Assembly (NCBI GenBank): GCA_017882285.1 | Contig: JADGPS010000035.1 | Coordinates: 1-33,010 of the forward strand | Reading direction: 5' to 3' | Length of the DNA: 33,010 nucleotides | Source of the DNA: Paludibacter sp. | GTDB taxonomy: Bacteria; Bacteroidota; Bacteroidia; Bacteroidales; Paludibacteraceae | Shown here: positions 5,343 through 11,443 of the stretch, piece after piece | How the letters are laid out: each line of letters opens with the position of its first letter | How positions within the stretch are numbered: position 1 is the first letter of the stretch | The notes under the pieces: model-generated | Databases searched by the model: none | The model's input: only the letters and a program-made list of their open reading frames with translations | What the model was told of the DNA's origin: nothing | Translations under genes and position numbers: made by a program

Positions 5343-5418
5343 CGGGGTGTAGCTCAGCCCGGTTTAGAGTACTCGTCTGGGGGGCGAGTGGTCGCAAGTT
5401 CGAATCTTGTCACCCCGA
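5343..5418 (+). tRNA. tRNA-Pro (anticodon GGG)
   Basis: The 76 nt fold into a full cloverleaf: acceptor CGGGGTG/CACCCCG, D stem GCTC/GAGT, anticodon stem CTCGT/GCGAG with loop CTGGGGG (anticodon GGG at 5379-5381), T stem GCAAG/CTTGT around TTCGAAT, and discriminator A at 5418. It decodes CCC and CCU proline codons. CCA is not encoded; the CCA-adding enzyme at 22436 would supply it. Confidence 0.95.
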
Positions 5419-5432
5419 CTGCTGAATATAAG

Positions 5433-5461
5433 AGGTTTACATGAAAATGTAAACCTTTTTT
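5433..5461 (+). terminator. Rho-independent terminator after tRNA-Pro
   Basis: A perfect 10-bp stem, AGGTTTACAT (5433-5442) and ATGTAAACCT (5447-5456), closes a GAAA tetraloop and is followed by a T run. It lies 14 bases past the tRNA. Confidence 0.9.
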
Positions 5462-5760: not shown

Positions 5761-5791
5761 TTTGCAGGATTAAAAATTTGCTGTATCTTTG
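5761..5791 (+). promoter_or_regulatory. Promoter of the leu operon
   Basis: A -33 TTTG at 5761-5764 and a -7 TATCTTTG at 5784-5791 are separated by exactly 19 bp, an excellent match to the Bacteroidota housekeeping consensus. The leader-peptide start follows 22 bases after the -7 box, leaving a short untranslated leader. Confidence 0.85.
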
Positions 5792-5813: not shown

Positions 5814-5876
5814 ATGAACAAAAGTTACTTACATATTCTCCTACTCGGTATTATTATTCTCTTGCAGAACAAGTAG
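5814..5876 (+). CDS. Leu/Ile-rich leader peptide of the leu operon attenuator
   Basis: This short ORF encodes MNKSYLHILLLGIIILLQNK and stops at TAG (5874-5876). Six of 20 residues are Leu and four are Ile, clustered as LLL at 9-11 and IIILL at 13-17, with mixed Leu codons (TTA, CTC, CTA, TTG). It starts 22 bases after a consensus -7 box and is followed by a strong terminator 41 bases downstream. Such a composition and position are the hallmark of a leader peptide whose translation senses charged tRNA-Leu and tRNA-Ile. The peptide probably has no other function. It is too short for usual gene finding and would be missed. Confidence 0.85.
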   Translation: MNKSYLHILLLGIIILLQNK

Positions 5877-5956
5877 AAGTGAGTTTGGTATGTATGTAAA
5901 TGTACAATAAAATATATAAAGCCTTTCTCACTTCGGTGCGGAAGGCTTTTTTTTTA
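5876..5956 (+). promoter_or_regulatory. Transcription attenuator: antiterminator and terminator of the leu operon
   Basis: The terminator is AAAGCCTTTC (5918-5927), an inner CAC-TTCG-GTG hairpin, and GGAAGGCTTT (5940-5949), followed by T's to 5955. An alternative pairing joins GAAGTGAG (5876-5883) to CTCACTTC (5927-5934), a perfect 8-bp match that destroys the terminator's 5' arm and loop. The upstream arm starts at the last base of the leader stop codon. A ribosome finishing the leader would cover it, allowing termination; a ribosome stalled on Leu or Ile codons would leave it free, allowing read-through into leuA. A third pairing, TTACATA (5829-5835) with TATGTAA (5893-5899), may act as a pause or 1:2 hairpin. 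The folding is by eye. Confidence 0.8.
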
Positions 5957-5960
5957 AGGC

Positions 5961-6026
5961 TGCCCCCAACCCCTAAAGGGGATTGAGGAAAGATACCCCC
6001 TAACCCCCTAAAGGGGAAATAGAGAG
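5961..6026. repeat. Two tandem G/C-run palindromic mini-repeats
   Basis: Two same-orientation units follow the attenuator: GCCCCCAACCCCTAAAGGGG at 5962-5981 and CCCCCTAACCCCCTAAAGGGG ending near 6016. Each has a run of C's, TAA, a second C run, TAAA and a G run, so that the second half is a palindrome. Confidence 0.8.
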
Positions 6027-6145
6027 AAGAAAATATCGTTAAATGATTGAAATGCGTTTTTCAAAACAAAGCAATTTTTGTTAAGGAATAAAGAATGTAG
6101 AATTAAAGCAAATATTACAATAAAAAAGCCGAAACCCTCTCGGTT
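6027..6145. other. Transcribed A/T-rich spacer before leuA
   Basis: This is part of the leuA untranslated region downstream of the attenuator. No gene, promoter or clear structure is seen. Confidence 0.5.
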
Positions 6146-6170
6146 CCCCCTTTAGGGGGTAAGGGGGCAA
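6146..6170. repeat. G/C-run palindromic mini-repeat touching leuA
   Basis: CCCCCTTTAGGGGG followed by TAAGGGGGCAA is the inverse orientation of the units at 5961-6026. It ends four bases before the leuA start codon and therefore occupies the ribosome-loading region. Confidence 0.85.
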
Positions 6171-6174
6171 CATT

Positions 6175-7668
6175 ATGGATAGATTATTTATCTTTGACAC
6201 AACTTTACGAGATGGCGAACAGGTTCCTGGGTGCCAGTTGAACACCGTTGAAAAAATTCAGGTAGCCAAAGCACTCGAAAGTTTGGGTGTTGATGTGATT
6301 GAAGCAGGTTTTCCAATTTCAAGTCCGGGCGATTTTAAATCTGTGGTAGAAATTTCGAAAGCAGTTACCTGGCCAACTATTTGCGCGTTAACACGGGGAG
6401 TACAAAAAGATATTGATGTAGCAGCCGAAGCCCTCCAATATGCTAAGAACAAACGCATTCATACCGGTATTGGAACTTCTGAGTTTCATATTAAATATAA
6501 ATTTAACTCCAATCAGGAAGATATTCTGGAACGTGCCATTGCTGCTGTAAAATATGCCAAAAAGTACGTGGAAGATGTTGAATTCTATTGCGAAGATGCC
6601 GGACGTACAGATAATGTGTATCTTGCACGTGTGGTGGAAGCGGTAATTAAAGCCGGTGCTACTGTGGTGAATATTCCTGATACAACCGGATATTGTTTGC
6701 CTTGGGAATTTGGAGATAAAATCAAATTTCTTATGGAAAATGTGAAAAGTGTGCACACTGCGATTCTTTCTACACACTGTCACAATGATTTAGGTATGGC
6801 AACAGCCAATACCATTTCGGGGATACTGAATGGTGCCCGTCAAGCGGAAGTAACTATCAATGGGATTGGCGAACGTGCCGGAAATACGTCGCTTGAAGAA
6901 GTCGCAATGATTTTGAAATGCCACAAAGGACTGAATATCGAAACGCAAATCAATACGCAAAAGATTTATTCTACCAGTCGCTTGGTTTCGGGTTTAATGA
7001 ATATGCCTGTTCAGGCTAATAAGGCTATTGTAGGTCGCAATGCTTTTGCACACTCGTCCGGTATTCACCAGGACGGCGTGTTGAAAAACCGCGAAAGCTA
7101 CGAAATTATAGATCCAAAAGATGTTGGTATCGATGAAAACTCGATTGTACTGACAGCTCGTAGTGGGCGTGCAGCACTGAAACATCGCTTGGGTATTTTG
7201 GGTGTAAACGTTGAAGGTGAAAAACTGGATATCATTTATGAAGAATTTTTGAAATTGGCTGACAAGAAAAAAGATATTAATGACGATGATGTATTATTGC
7301 TTGCCGGTATGGAACGTAGCGAAAAACAACGCATAAAACTGGATTATTTGCAAGTGACTTCGGGCGTAGGAGTGAAGGCGGTTGCCAGTATTGGGTTGAT
7401 TATTGCCAATGAAAAATTTGAAGCGGCTGCTTCCGGAAACGGACCGGTAGATGCTGCTATTAAAGCATTGAAGCAAATCATCAAACGCAATATGACTTTG
7501 CAGGAATTTACAATTCAAGCTATTAATAAAGGAAGCGATGATGTTGGAAAAGTTCATATGCAAGTTGAACATCAAGGAGCTGTTTATTATGGTTTTGGTG
7601 CGAATACTGACATTATTGCCGCTTCAGTGGAAGCATATATCAATGCAATCAATAAGTTTGTGAAATAA
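6175..7668 (+). CDS. leuA: 2-isopropylmalate synthase LeuA
   Basis: LeuA condenses acetyl-CoA with 2-ketoisovalerate, the committed step to leucine. The 497-residue product carries the TIM-barrel signature LRDGEQ at 11-16, which holds the metal-binding Asp13, and HCHNDLGMA at 201-209 with the two metal-binding His residues. NGIGERAGN follows at 229-237. The C-terminal third, from about residue 370, is the LeuA allosteric (leucine-binding) domain, so feedback inhibition is likely. The length is standard. It is the first structural gene of the operon and sits behind the attenuator. A palindromic repeat ends four bases before the ATG. A paralogue is encoded two genes downstream. Confidence 0.95.
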
Positions 7669-7821: not shown

Positions 7822-9258
7822 ATGAATTCAAATAACGCACAAACTCCCCCTTCAGGGGGGCGGGGGGCAAGTACCCTTTTTGATAAAATTTGGGATGCCC
7901 ATGTAGTATCAACAGTTGACGGTGGTCCGACACAGTTGTATATCGATCGTCATTTTTGTCATGAAGTAACTAGTCCGCAAGCATTTAACGGTCTTCGGAC
8001 ACGCGGTTTAAAAGTGTTTCGTCCTGACAAAACAACCTTAACAGCCGACCACAACACGCCGACTATCAATCAGGATCAGCCAGTGAATGATCCAATTTCA
8101 CGTAATCAGTTGGATATATTTGCCCGCAATGCAGTTGAATTCAATTTGCCTTTATATTTCCCACTCGGACACATTAAGAATGGTGTGGTTCATATCATTG
8201 GCCCTGAAAACGGATTTACCCAACCGGGTATGACCATTGTTTGTGGCGACAGTCACACTTCTACTCACGGTGCTTTCGGAGCTGTTGCGTTCGGTATCGG
8301 AACCAGCGAGGTGGAAATGGTATTGGCAACACAATGTGTACTTCAATCGCGTCCGAAAACGATGCTTATTACTTTCAACGGAAAACTTGGTAAAGGTGTA
8401 ACGGCTAAAGATTTGGCTCTTTATATGATTTCCAAACTAACTACCGGTGGTGCTACAGGTTATTTTGTTGAATATGCTGGTGAAGCTATACGCAATTTGT
8501 CGATGGAAGAACGTATGACCGTTTGTAACCTTTCCATTGAAATGGGTGCGCGCGGTGGTCTTATTGCTCCTGACCAAACTACTTTCGACTATGTTGAAGG
8601 ACGAGAATATGCTCCAAAAGACGAGGAATGGGAGACAAAATTAGCTTATTGGAAAACATTGAAAACCGAGGAAAAAGCTACTTTCGACAAAGAACTTGTT
8701 TTTGATGCAGCTGATATTCAACCAATGATTACCTATGGAACAAATCCGGGAATGGGAATGGGCATAACCGATTCAATTCCAACCTTGGACGAAGTGGATG
8801 AAGCCGGACGCATTTCTTTCCAAAAATCGTTGGAATACATGGGTTTCCAACCGGGAGAAAAACTGGAAGGCAAACAAATTGATTATGTGTTTCTTGGTAG
8901 TTGTACTAATGGACGAATCGAAGATTTCCGCGTATTTGCCAATTTTGTAAAAGGCAAAAAGAAAGCCGATAATTTAATAGTATGGTTGGTTCCCGGAAGT
9001 TGGATGGTGGAAAAACAAATTCGTGAAGAAGGACTGTTGGAAATTCTTACTGAAGCAGGTTTTGCACTTCGTCAACCCGGTTGTTCTGCTTGTCTGGCCA
9101 TGAACGATGATAAAGTTCCAGCCGGAAAATATGCAGTTTCGACATCAAATCGTAATTTCGAAGGCCGTCAAGGTCCTGGAGCACGGACTATTCTTGCCGG
9201 TCCGCTTGTAGCTGCTGCTGCTGCCGTAACAGGTAAAATAACAGATCCACGTAATTAA
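7822..9258 (+). CDS. leuC: 3-isopropylmalate dehydratase, large subunit LeuC
   Basis: LeuC with LeuD isomerises 2-isopropylmalate to 3-isopropylmalate using a 4Fe-4S cluster, and in many bacteria also acts on citramalate. The 478-residue product has the three cluster ligands in GSCTNGR (Cys361) and GCSAC (Cys421, Cys424), and the aconitase-type segments [13 protein letters not shown] at 141-153 and ADHNTP at 75-80. Normal LeuC proteins begin close to the [12 protein letters not shown] segment. Here about 16 residues precede it, and residues 8 to 16 are translated from a G/C-run palindromic repeat. No other in-frame start is available nearer that segment, so the extension is probably made. leuD follows 19 bases downstream. 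Confidence 0.95.
7845..7871. repeat. G/C-run palindromic mini-repeat inside the leuC coding region
   Basis: CTCCCCCTTCAGGGGGG followed by CGGGGGGCAAG has the same architecture as the copies before leuA and leuC, slightly diverged (TTCA for TTTA, C for T). It is read as [10 protein letters not shown] in the LeuC N-terminus. It is the only copy found wholly inside a gene. Confidence 0.85.
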
Positions 9259-9277: not shown

Positions 9278-9865
9278 ATGGGAAAATATATAACTTTTAC
9301 TTCGTCGGTTGTTCCACTTCCGATTGAAAATATAGATACAGACCAAATTATACCTGCTCGCTTCTTAAAAGCGACAAACAAAGACGGTTTTGGTGATAAT
9401 CTTTTTGCCGACTGGCGTTATAACAAAGATGGCAGTCCGAAATTGGATTTCGTGTTGAACAACCCAACTTTTGGCGGTACTATTCTTGTTGCCGGAAAAA
9501 ACTTCGGTTCAGGTTCCAGTCGCGAACATGCAGCCTGGGCAATTGACGGTTACGGATTTAAAGCAGTTGTGTCGAGCTTTTTTGCCGATATTTTTCAAAA
9601 TAATGCCTTAAACAATGGTGTTCTTCCTGTAGTTGTATCTGCGGATTTTTTAGCAGAAGTATTTGCCTCTGTAAATTCCAATCCAAAAGCAACGCTGACT
9701 ATTAATCTTCAAAATCAGACTATTACAAGCAATGCAACCGGCAAATCTGAAACATTTACAATAAATACTTACAAAAAAGAATGTTTGCTGAATGGTCTCG
9801 ACGATATTGATTATCTGTTGAGCAAAAAAGAACAGATTGAAGCTTACGAAAAATTAATTAAATAA
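9278..9865 (+). CDS. leuD: 3-isopropylmalate dehydratase, small subunit LeuD
   Basis: LeuD is the swivelling-domain partner of LeuC and completes the isomerase active site. The 195-residue product has the small-subunit signature NFGSGSSREHAAWAI at about residues 77-91 and the NIDTDQIIPARFL segment at 18-30. Its length is normal. It lies 19 bases after leuC and is translated from the same operon message. The gap to the next gene holds a perfect two-part hairpin formed by a GCCAAT-type repeat. Confidence 0.95.
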   Translation: MGKYITFTSSVVPLPIENIDTDQIIPARFLKATNKDGFGDNLFADWRYNKDGSPKLDFVLNNPTFGGTILVAGKNFGSGSSREHAAWAIDGYGFKAVVSSFFADIFQNNALNNGVLPVVVSADFLAEVFASVNSNPKATLTINLQNQTITSNATGKSETFTINTYKKECLLNGLDDIDYLLSKKEQIEAYEKLIK

Positions 9866-9937: not shown

Positions 9938-11443
9938 ATGATAGAAATAATGGATACTACACTTCGCGATGGTGAACAGACTTCCGGAGTTTCGTTTGCA
10001 GCACAGGAGAAATTGAGCGTTGCGCGACTTTTGTTAGAAGAACTATGCGTGGACAGAATTGAAATAGCATCGGCACGGGTGTCCGAAGGTGAATTTGCTT
10101 CGGTAAAAAGGGTAGCACAATGGGCACGGACTCACGGACATATTGAACAAATAGAAGTTCTGGGATTTGTAGATGGGCGTTTGTCACTCGATTGGATCCG
10201 GAATGCAGGCTGTACAGTAATTAATCTGTTGTGTAAAGGTTCGTTGAATCATTGTAAGTATCAATTAAAAAAAACTCCTGATCAGCACATTGCCGATATT
10301 AAACAAGTGTTGGCTAATGCCCGCGAAATGGGAATTTCTGTCAATGTTTACCTCGAAGATTGGTCGAACGGGATGCGTGAATCAGAAGATTATGTCTATT
10401 TTATGGTCGATTCGTTAAAAAATGAATCCATCAACCGTTTCATGTTACCTGATACGCTTGGTATTTTAAATCCGACTGAAACCTACGATTTTTGTTCACG
10501 AATGATTTCCCGTTATCCCGATTTACACTTCGATTTTCATGCACACAATGATTACGATTTTGCGGTCGCCAATGTTTTTGAAGCCGTAAAAGCGGGAGTA
10601 AAAGGTATTCATGTCACAGTAAACGGGTTGGGCGAACGTGCAGGAAATGCTCCATTATCCAGCGTTTTAGCTGTTTTGCACGATCATTTGAATTTAAATA
10701 CCTATTTGAAGGAAGAAAAAATTAACTCGGTTAGTAAAGTAGTGGAAACTTATTCCGGAATTAGAATTCCACATAACAAGCCGGTAATAGGCGAAAATGT
10801 ATTTACACAAGTTGCCGGAATTCATGCGGACGGTGACAATAAAAAAAATCTATATTACAACGATTTATTACCTGAGCGTTTTGGTCGTGAACGTCAGTAT
10901 GCATTAGGAAAAACATCAGGAAAAGCAAACATTTTAAAGAATTTACAACAGCTTGGAATTGAGCTTGATGATGAAACAATGAAACGTGTTACGGCTCGTG
11001 TCATTGAATTGGGTGATAAAAAAGAAACTGTTTCAATCGATGAGCTCCCATATATTGTGTCAGATGTACTTAAAAATGAACAGGAAGAACAAGTTGTAAA
11101 GATTCTGAATTATTCATTATCACTGACTTATGGACTTCGTCCAATGGCTACGGTGAAAATGGAAATAAACGGGAAAGTTTATGAACAATCGGCTGCCGGA
11201 GATGGACAATTCAATGCAGTTTCAAAAGCCATGTGGAAGATTTATAAAGCGTTAAATAAACCAACACCCGAATTGTTGGATTACGTCGTGGTAATTCCTC
11301 CTGGTGGAAAAACAAATGCTTTTGTTCAAACCATTATTACCTGGAGGTTTAACGAAAAAGTGTTTAAGACACGTGGTCTGGATGGCGACCAAACAGTTGC
11401 TGCCATAAAAGCAACCATAAAAATGTTGAATATTATTGATTAA
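9938..11443 (+). CDS. LeuA-family synthase, probably (R)-citramalate synthase
   Basis: This 501-residue LeuA paralogue has its own LRDGEQ (9-14), FHAHND (200-205) and NGLGERAGN (229-237) motifs and a C-terminal LeuA-type regulatory domain from about 370. Family members condense acetyl-CoA with a 2-keto acid. Its position between leuD and leuB, next to a complete leuA, suggests it makes citramalate from pyruvate; LeuCD and LeuB can then turn citramalate into 2-ketobutyrate, an isoleucine precursor. Ile codons in the leader peptide agree with this. The substrate cannot be read from sequence by eye, and a second isopropylmalate synthase or homocitrate-type enzyme remains possible. The ATG at 9938 is chosen because the family motif starts there; the upstream in-frame TTG (9899) lies in repeat DNA. 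Confidence 0.85.
   Translation: MIEIMDTTLRDGEQTSGVSFAAQEKLSVARLLLEELCVDRIEIASARVSEGEFASVKRVAQWARTHGHIEQIEVLGFVDGRLSLDWIRNAGCTVINLLCKGSLNHCKYQLKKTPDQHIADIKQVLANAREMGISVNVYLEDWSNGMRESEDYVYFMVDSLKNESINRFMLPDTLGILNPTETYDFCSRMISRYPDLHFDFHAHNDYDFAVANVFEAVKAGVKGIHVTVNGLGERAGNAPLSSVLAVLHDHLNLNTYLKEEKINSVSKVVETYSGIRIPHNKPVIGENVFTQVAGIHADGDNKKNLYYNDLLPERFGRERQYALGKTSGKANILKNLQQLGIELDDETMKRVTARVIELGDKKETVSIDELPYIVSDVLKNEQEEQVVKILNYSLSLTYGLRPMATVKMEINGKVYEQSAAGDGQFNAVSKAMWKIYKALNKPTPELLDYVVVIPPGGKTNAFVQTIITWRFNEKVFKTRGLDGDQTVAAIKATIKMLNIID

Follow-up and report, generated by a model that had tools for sequence, protein, structure and literature searches.

Between a tRNA-Pro gene (5343-5419) and leuA (6175-7668), the window, by which we mean the whole stretch of 33,010 nucleotides analysed here, carries a short transcription unit, and the question it raises is what this unit does to the genes that follow. 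The window is contig C33 of a genome of 3.18 Mb with a completeness of 98.29%. By far the best reading is the one originally predicted: judged from its sequence, the unit is very probably a classical ribosome-mediated transcription attenuator that would tune leuA-leuC-leuD-cimA-leuB to how much charged leucyl- and isoleucyl-tRNA is available. The observations behind this reading are the anatomy of the unit, the codons, frame and helices (antiterminator and terminator among them) conserved in relatives, and a codon content that matches the gene downstream. The unit is composed of the following parts.

5761-5791, + strand: promoter, TTTG (5761-5764), 19 nt, TATCTTTG (5784-5791); from sequence
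5814-5876, + strand: leader open reading frame (ORF) MNKSYLHILLLGIIILLQNK, 20 codons plus TAG (ATG 5814, codons to 5873, TAG 5874-5876); from sequence
5829-5837, + strand: segment 1, protector 5' arm, leader codons 6-8, with an inner part ACTC at 5843-5846; from pairing in 38 sequences
5881-5899, + strand: protector 3' arm, GAGT 5881-5884 with 5843-5846 and GGTATGTAT 5887-5895 with 5829-5837; predicted pairing
5876-5883 and 5887-5889, + strand: segment 2, antiterminator 5' arm, GAAGTGAG plus GGT; from sequence and relatives
5921-5923 and 5927-5934, + strand: segment 3, antiterminator 3' arm, GCC plus CTCACTTC; from sequence and relatives
5918-5949, + strand: predicted intrinsic terminator, segments 3:4, loop UUCG, T-run 5947-5955; dG -15.6, pairing in relatives

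The unit opens with TTTG, which we take to be the upstream element of a Bacteroidota-type promoter, and the consensus promoter of the original prediction is borne out; transcription is expected to start at ~5797. Direct reading confirms a leader of 20 codons with 6 Leu and 4 Ile, and no Val; its Leu codons are, in order, TTA CTC CTA CTC CTC TTG. The motif TAnnTTTG, which one published account names as a Bacteroidetes promoter (PMC6414381), precedes the leader in most relatives scanned. The 5' arm of the antiterminator begins at the stop codon (5876) in the window, as claimed, but in relatives the stop shifts against the arm; the Bacteroides fragilis leader, MNQSFIHILLCGIIILLAKVGGSECRA, holds the arm within the ORF as codons Gly-Ser-Glu.

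Segment 2 (5876-5889) overlaps both the stop codon and the protector 3' arm, and its main part, GAAGTGAG, is the exact reverse complement of CTCACTTC at 5927-5934. Segment 3 lies within the terminator 5' arm and loop, and thus the antiterminator invades the terminator as stated in the original prediction. That prediction had called the attenuator complete: ORF, antiterminator and terminator are indeed present, but it had overlooked a third helix, formed by codons 6-8 (UACAUAUU) with GGUAUGUA at 5887-5895, plus ACUC with GAGU; TATGTAA (5893-5899) offers the 3' arm a second register. Because this helix overlaps the antiterminator 5' arm, it corresponds to the 1:2 helix, or protector, known from classical attenuators, and by pairing leader codons with the antiterminator arm it is predicted to complete the 1:2, 2:3 and 3:4 set. 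The T-run reaches 5955, and the end once given for the element, 5956, is an A.

The genes that would be regulated are listed here, leuA being the first.

6175-7668, + strand: leuA, 2-isopropylmalate synthase, predicted first regulated gene; TIGR00973, 660 bits, above cut-off
7822-9258, + strand: leuC, 3-isopropylmalate dehydratase large subunit; TIGR00170, above cut-off
9278-9865, + strand: leuD, 3-isopropylmalate dehydratase small subunit; TIGR00171, above cut-off
9941-11443 (start 9899 or 9941), + strand: cimA-like, (R)-citramalate synthase, isoleucine route; NF042433 (CimA), 652 bits
11518-12600, + strand: leuB, 3-isopropylmalate dehydrogenase; TIGR00169, above cut-off

LeuA, LeuC, LeuD and LeuB pass their NCBIfam cut-offs; the cimA-like protein has CimA as its best family, at a score below the cut-off of that model (950 bits). 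The five genes probably form one operon. The Ile codons of the leader make sense because the operon contains this citramalate synthase-like gene, which the original prediction had left out: LeuCD and LeuB serve leucine synthesis and the citramalate route to isoleucine alike. A cimA motif follows leuA in 39 of the 68 loci that extend at least 2350 nt past leuA, and the remaining loci may end before the gene.

In the proposed mechanism, RNA polymerase would make the leader while a ribosome trails it through the 20-codon ORF. With Leu and Ile plentiful, the ribosome would reach the stop codon and cover segment 2, segment 3 would pair with segment 4, and transcription would end in the T-run. With Leu or Ile short, it would stall on codons 6-17 (of the leader's six Leu codons, four are CTC or CTA, which are rare), breaking the protector and leaving segment 2 free to pair with segment 3; the terminator could then not form in time and the operon would be read. 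With no ribosome loaded, the protector would occupy segment 2 and the terminator would form. Stalling, coupling of transcription to translation, read-through and a response to starvation are what we infer from this arrangement.

Folding of growing transcripts, restricted to the RNA downstream of a ribosome with an assumed footprint of 15 nt past the P site, reproduces the expected switch. For an A site placed on any of codons 6, 9-11 and 13-17, the probability of the antiterminator is 0.89-1.0 at transcript ends 5934, 5940 and 5945; it falls to 0.54-0.72 on codon 18 and 0.19-0.37 on codon 19, and by codons 20-21 it has dropped to 0, giving way to the terminator. When no ribosome is placed, the antiterminator reaches 0.90 at 5934, 0.54 at 5940 and 0.08 at 5945, where protector and terminator prevail; the untranslated state is therefore ambiguous, given the high value at 5934. 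Once the transcript extends to 5949 or 5953, folding favours the terminator throughout, with a stalled ribosome as well (antiterminator 0-0.37). The folding check named in the original prediction thus gave the switch on growing transcripts but not at full-length equilibrium, where the terminator wins, and the antiterminator would therefore have to hold kinetically while the polymerase passes. The fold of the whole leader is weak (z -1.74, with 8 of 200 shuffles folding at least as well) and was kept out of the evidence.

How widely the arrangement occurs was assessed in a sample of leuA loci made up of 80 named loci (the best 80 of 528, assigned to Bacteroidales by the search result), 46 of 50 places in 60 relatives (G033, G006, G025 and G049:C285 being left out) and all 74 places from a set of 296 genomes belonging to the class. 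Among the best 80, the relatives closest by leuA are mostly Paludibacter metagenome-assembled genomes. The sample was reduced to 176 distinct upstream regions, after L180 and L197 had been dropped for want of a readable leuA start. The scan called for an ORF that starts with ATG, spans 10-40 codons and has 7 or more Ile, Leu or Val in 12, followed by a hairpin below -9 kcal/mol and a T-run. This composite is present in 81 of the 176 regions, all within the 115 from Bacteroidales, and directly before leuA in none of the 61 from other orders of the class. Some of the 34 Bacteroidales regions that fail the scan are short, and L033, L055 and L059 have a leader nonetheless. None of 510 dinucleotide shuffles contains the composite, which rules out a chance hydrophobic ORF.

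The comparison of leuA leaders among relatives, a check that the original prediction had itself proposed, found Leu/Ile codons, frame, antiterminator and terminator conserved, with compensatory changes outside the genus. Across 38 aligned Paludibacter-type relatives (L041, with a weak hairpin, was dropped from the alignment), the reading frame and the Leu/Ile codons are kept, and where the leader is shorter, in 6 of the 38, one whole codon, an Ile codon, is missing. In the 79 distinct leuA leaders Leu makes up 24.8% of residues, Ile 20.3% and Val 1.1%, compared with 9.1%, 8.9% and 6.9% in nine proteins of the window; CTC and CTA account for 55% of the Leu codons in these leaders versus 8% in the nine window genes. 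The pattern of substitution points the same way. The leader has a pN/pS of 0.32 over codons 2-20 (0.38 at codons 2-5, 0.17 at 6-8, 0.19 at 9-17 and 0.28 at 18-20), and its pS, 0.77 at codons 2-5 and so near the 0.72 of leuA, drops to 0.28 at codons 9-17, which are therefore held as codons and as RNA alike. Synonymous change amounts to 0.38 at Leu codons and 0.17 at Ile codons in the leader, against 0.80 and 0.75 in leuA. The leader's pN (0.133) exceeds that of leuA (0.054), its amino acids being less conserved than those of leuA. From this selection we infer that the leader is translated, as a short ORF rich in codons for the product of the operon. Ile codons 13-15 (5850-5858) are ATT in nearly all genus members, whereas the Ile codons of leuA vary freely; they lie outside the three defined helices, and in the predicted fold of the window some of them are base-paired within the loop of the protector.

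The three helices are kept in the 38 genus sequences, where the protector is paired in 93.7% of cells (19-57% when slid), the antiterminator in 90.7% (41-54%) and the terminator in 92.8% (26-69%); the helices were drawn from the window's own sequence, one of the 38, which favours them over the slid controls. The pairing described as a perfect 8 bp is exact in the window, but the conserved unit is GTGAG:CTCAC, whose five pairs never fail in the 38, while mismatches occur at the three outer pairs, in 8, 19 and 6 of them; in GGT:GCC failure is confined to the middle pair (6 of 38). Pairs changed on both sides within the genus number two in the protector, one in the antiterminator and two in the terminator; only those of the terminator clearly exceed shuffles. 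As within-genus covariation is too small to decide, the arms of all 79 distinct leaders were compared instead. In several lineages beyond the genus, the two sides of the antiterminator core have changed together: besides GTGAG:CTCAC there are AAGCGGG:CTCGCTT, GGAAGTAAG:CTTGCTTCC, GGTAGTAAGA:TCTTGCTACC, GAGTGCG:CGCACTC and GAGAATGG:CCATTCTC (G-U allowed). When arms were swapped between leaders, own arms summed to -1251 against a swapped mean of -1120 (sd 16), a value reached by 0 of 5000 permutations with relatedness ignored; the own 5' arm is equalled or surpassed by a mean fraction of 0.336 of the foreign ones. Compared with shuffled versions of the same segments, the antiterminator duplex has z < -2 in 50 of the 79 leaders and the protector duplex in 26, the protector being clear within the genus and weaker beyond. 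The antiterminator is thus predicted to be mutually exclusive with the terminator and appears conserved by covariation, mainly outside the genus and with relatedness uncorrected.

The UUCG-loop terminator of the original prediction is also upheld, as a predicted intrinsic terminator between leader and leuA with a stem (5918-5949) conserved through compensatory changes in relatives. This hairpin goes unlisted in a simple terminator scan, presumably owing to a 1x1 mismatch in the stem. The loop itself (5932-5935 in the window) is UUCG, UACG or UGCG, of the UNCG kind, in many genus members and differs in others.

A leader of this build could act in ways other than codon-wise sensing of starvation. 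The nascent peptide, LHILLLGIIILLQNK, might itself arrest the ribosome or bind a ligand, as in TnaC-like leaders. Its near-invariance in the genus would fit, with His7 in 37 of 38 sequences and Leu10, Leu16 and Leu17 each in 38 of 38, as would the near-constant ATT at Ile codons 13-15, where ATC would use the same tRNA. The constancy of His7 is, however, accounted for by the protector helix, and a specific peptide is hard to reconcile with residues other than Leu and Ile that differ widely outside the genus, with the Ile codon lost in some genus members, and with the Val swapped into ilvD leaders and the His into hisG leaders; we consider peptide arrest very unlikely. Less likely again is that the product of the ORF is a small hydrophobic protein, such as a membrane peptide resembling type I toxins, and that its transcript simply ends at the hairpin. 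A hydrophobic 20-mer under purifying selection, with its own promoter and terminator, would look much like this, but a small-protein gene has no need of antiterminator complementarity, and 44 of 46 places found with a model of the leader could be assigned, all before amino-acid genes.

The least probable alternative, to which we give hardly any weight, is that the hairpin terminates the upstream tRNA-Pro and cardiolipin synthase unit and that leuA has its own, later promoter. The end of tRNA-Pro at 5419 and the ~220 nt between terminator and leuA, with palindromic repeats, would be compatible with it. However, tRNA-Pro has a terminator-like hairpin of its own, placed at 5430-5459 by the terminator scan, and in several relatives the T-run stands just 19-30 nt before leuA.

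Attenuators of the enterobacterial leu, ilv, his and trp operons consist of a leader ORF with cognate codons, a 1:2 protector, a 2:3 antiterminator and a 3:4 terminator. The window element shares the ORF with cognate codons and the three-helix set with them; they belong to another phylum, no sequence relation is seen, and the window element presumably senses Leu plus Ile, which fits the cimA-like gene. Within the phylum, Vitreschak et al. reportedly predicted some attenuators in Bacteroidetes/Chlorobi in 2004. In Rfam, no family explains the leader element at gathering score in the window or in six relatives. The near-misses on the window (PyrR 26.9 bits, Bacteroid-trp 25.7, Qrr 24.6, Phe_leader 19.7 and others) fall far short of their gathering scores and were put down to chance or to a general likeness among leaders. 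Leu_leader is absent at gathering score and among nine matches at E up to 5, and the T-box is matched in neither scan of the window.

The nearest precedent in kind is RF01692, Bacteroid-trp, described by Weinberg et al. 2010 (PMC2864571). Like the leu element it is a predicted leader in the same phylum, given in Rfam as a tryptophan peptide leader, but it has Trp codons and precedes a trp operon; the window element has no Trp codon and scores below the gathering score of 49 bits with this model. A transcriptome of Flavobacterium psychrophilum, of the family Flavobacteriaceae, reports leader-peptide attenuators and mentions Bacteroid-trp (PMC9723704); these too belong to amino-acid operons of the same phylum, and neither 'leuA' nor 'ilv' occurs in its main text. 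Small ORFs of B. thetaiotaomicron have been called 'reminiscent of leader peptides' (PMC7366714). Farther afield, the actinobacterial LEU element also has a leader peptide with a Leu run before leuA, but is described with a pseudoknot and a base stem involving the Shine-Dalgarno site, other attenuator parts missing (PMC1262725). The ilv-leu leaders of Staphylococcus and Listeria likewise combine an attenuator peptide, Leu-rich in S. aureus, with branched-chain genes, but in another phylum and beside the regulator CodY (PMC5794164, PMC5864092). Attenuation in Bacteroidota is already known, and the window element is ordinary in mechanism. The original prediction knew of no experimentally described case in the phylum; attenuation as such has precedents there, RF01692 and F. 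psychrophilum among them, and no title listed in a literature search that took in few subscription journals and no supplements is an experiment on leu or ilv attenuation in Bacteroidota.

The leader family as such has no gathering-level match in Rfam, and alignments and a covariance model are now supplied for it. A conserved Bacteroidales set without sequence match to the known leader models argues for a separate or much older origin. Branched-chain amino-acid synthesis in many Bacteroidales, including B. fragilis, is probably set by leader-peptide attenuation, to judge from these leaders, and with the element one could readily test how transcription and translation are coupled in Bacteroidota.

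The covariance model, built from the 38 leuA leaders only and with the 1:2 and 3:4 helices, leads to similar elements elsewhere. In the own genome it finds leuA (E 7.6e-32) and ilvD (E 1.2e-7); the next two, at E 0.015 and 0.019, come from the same two regions, one from the strand opposite the ilvD element and one from next to that of leuA, and the own trp leader scores E 0.19. Over 149 genomes of the order it finds 46 places in 32 genomes, the own genome included: 21 precede leuA, 21 ilvD (one of them ilvE-ilvD), one hisG and one a gltB-like gene, and the other two overlap assigned places on the opposite strand. Gene names at these places come from motifs read by eye, and five places were assigned by coordinates.

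The own ilvD leader, MTSQRIYTILVLVVLLLVNNQR (G000:C88:7705-7862; L201, L263), contains Val, Leu and Ile and is related to the leuA leader by its model score. Such a leader is present in 24 of the 25 readable ilvD upstreams (of 30 loci) of relatives, 20 of 21 in the genus, under thresholds looser than in the leuA scan and with no shuffle control. Among relatives, 20 ilvD leaders have Val at 22.2% of their residues, against 1.1% in the leuA leaders; order-wide, counting the ORF inside each model match, the core lacks Val in 16 of 18 leuA leaders but contains it in 15 of 19 from ilvD (p 2e-5, with relatedness ignored). Before hisG, the model place carries the leader MKRTVLHHHHHHYNGQ. In Bacteroidales (L271, G158:C1:206159-206303, and L277-L305), His-rich ORFs, for example MNNTLHHHHHHCNSSR, precede hisG in 17 of the 20 loci (of 30) with a readable start, compared with 13 of 600 shuffles, and 14 of the 17 have a terminator; the own hisG upstream (L202) has no His-rich ORF. 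Rfam Bacteroid-trp matches the own genome at 51 bits, above its gathering score, before a trpB-like gene, where an ORF MKSLLTVNKFWWWHLQIS and a terminator-like hairpin are recognised by eye.

These likenesses may tentatively be read, at rather less than even probability, as one modular scaffold, in which a GTGAG-type arm is followed by a CTCAC-type terminator arm and a protector covers the leader codons, copied between Bacteroidales amino-acid operons with its codons swapped: Leu/Ile for leuA, Val/Leu/Ile for ilvD, His for hisG and Trp for trp. If so, the set would work only when the leading ribosome moves as fast as RNA polymerase, and would therefore be a natural reporter of transcription-translation coupling in Bacteroidota. 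The place before the gltB-like gene (L275, G391:C2:74477-74634, minus strand; E 9e-4) has a terminator and antiterminator-like arms, ATGAGGATGG / CCATTCTCAT; Lys, His and Asn abound in its ORF, MKTKHTSFANKHAYKHNKIVQ, with no obvious fit to glutamate synthase.

The stretch between the attenuator and leuA has a feature of its own: 5989-6026 and 6137-6174 form an inverted repeat of 38 nt at 82%. The palindrome CCCCTWWAGGGG occurs six times in the window (5970, 6005, 6147, 7694, 7793 and 28249), where 0 are expected, and a longer form has 62 matches in the genome, some overlapping, compared with 0 for a reversed control; these repeats look like a dispersed REP-like element.
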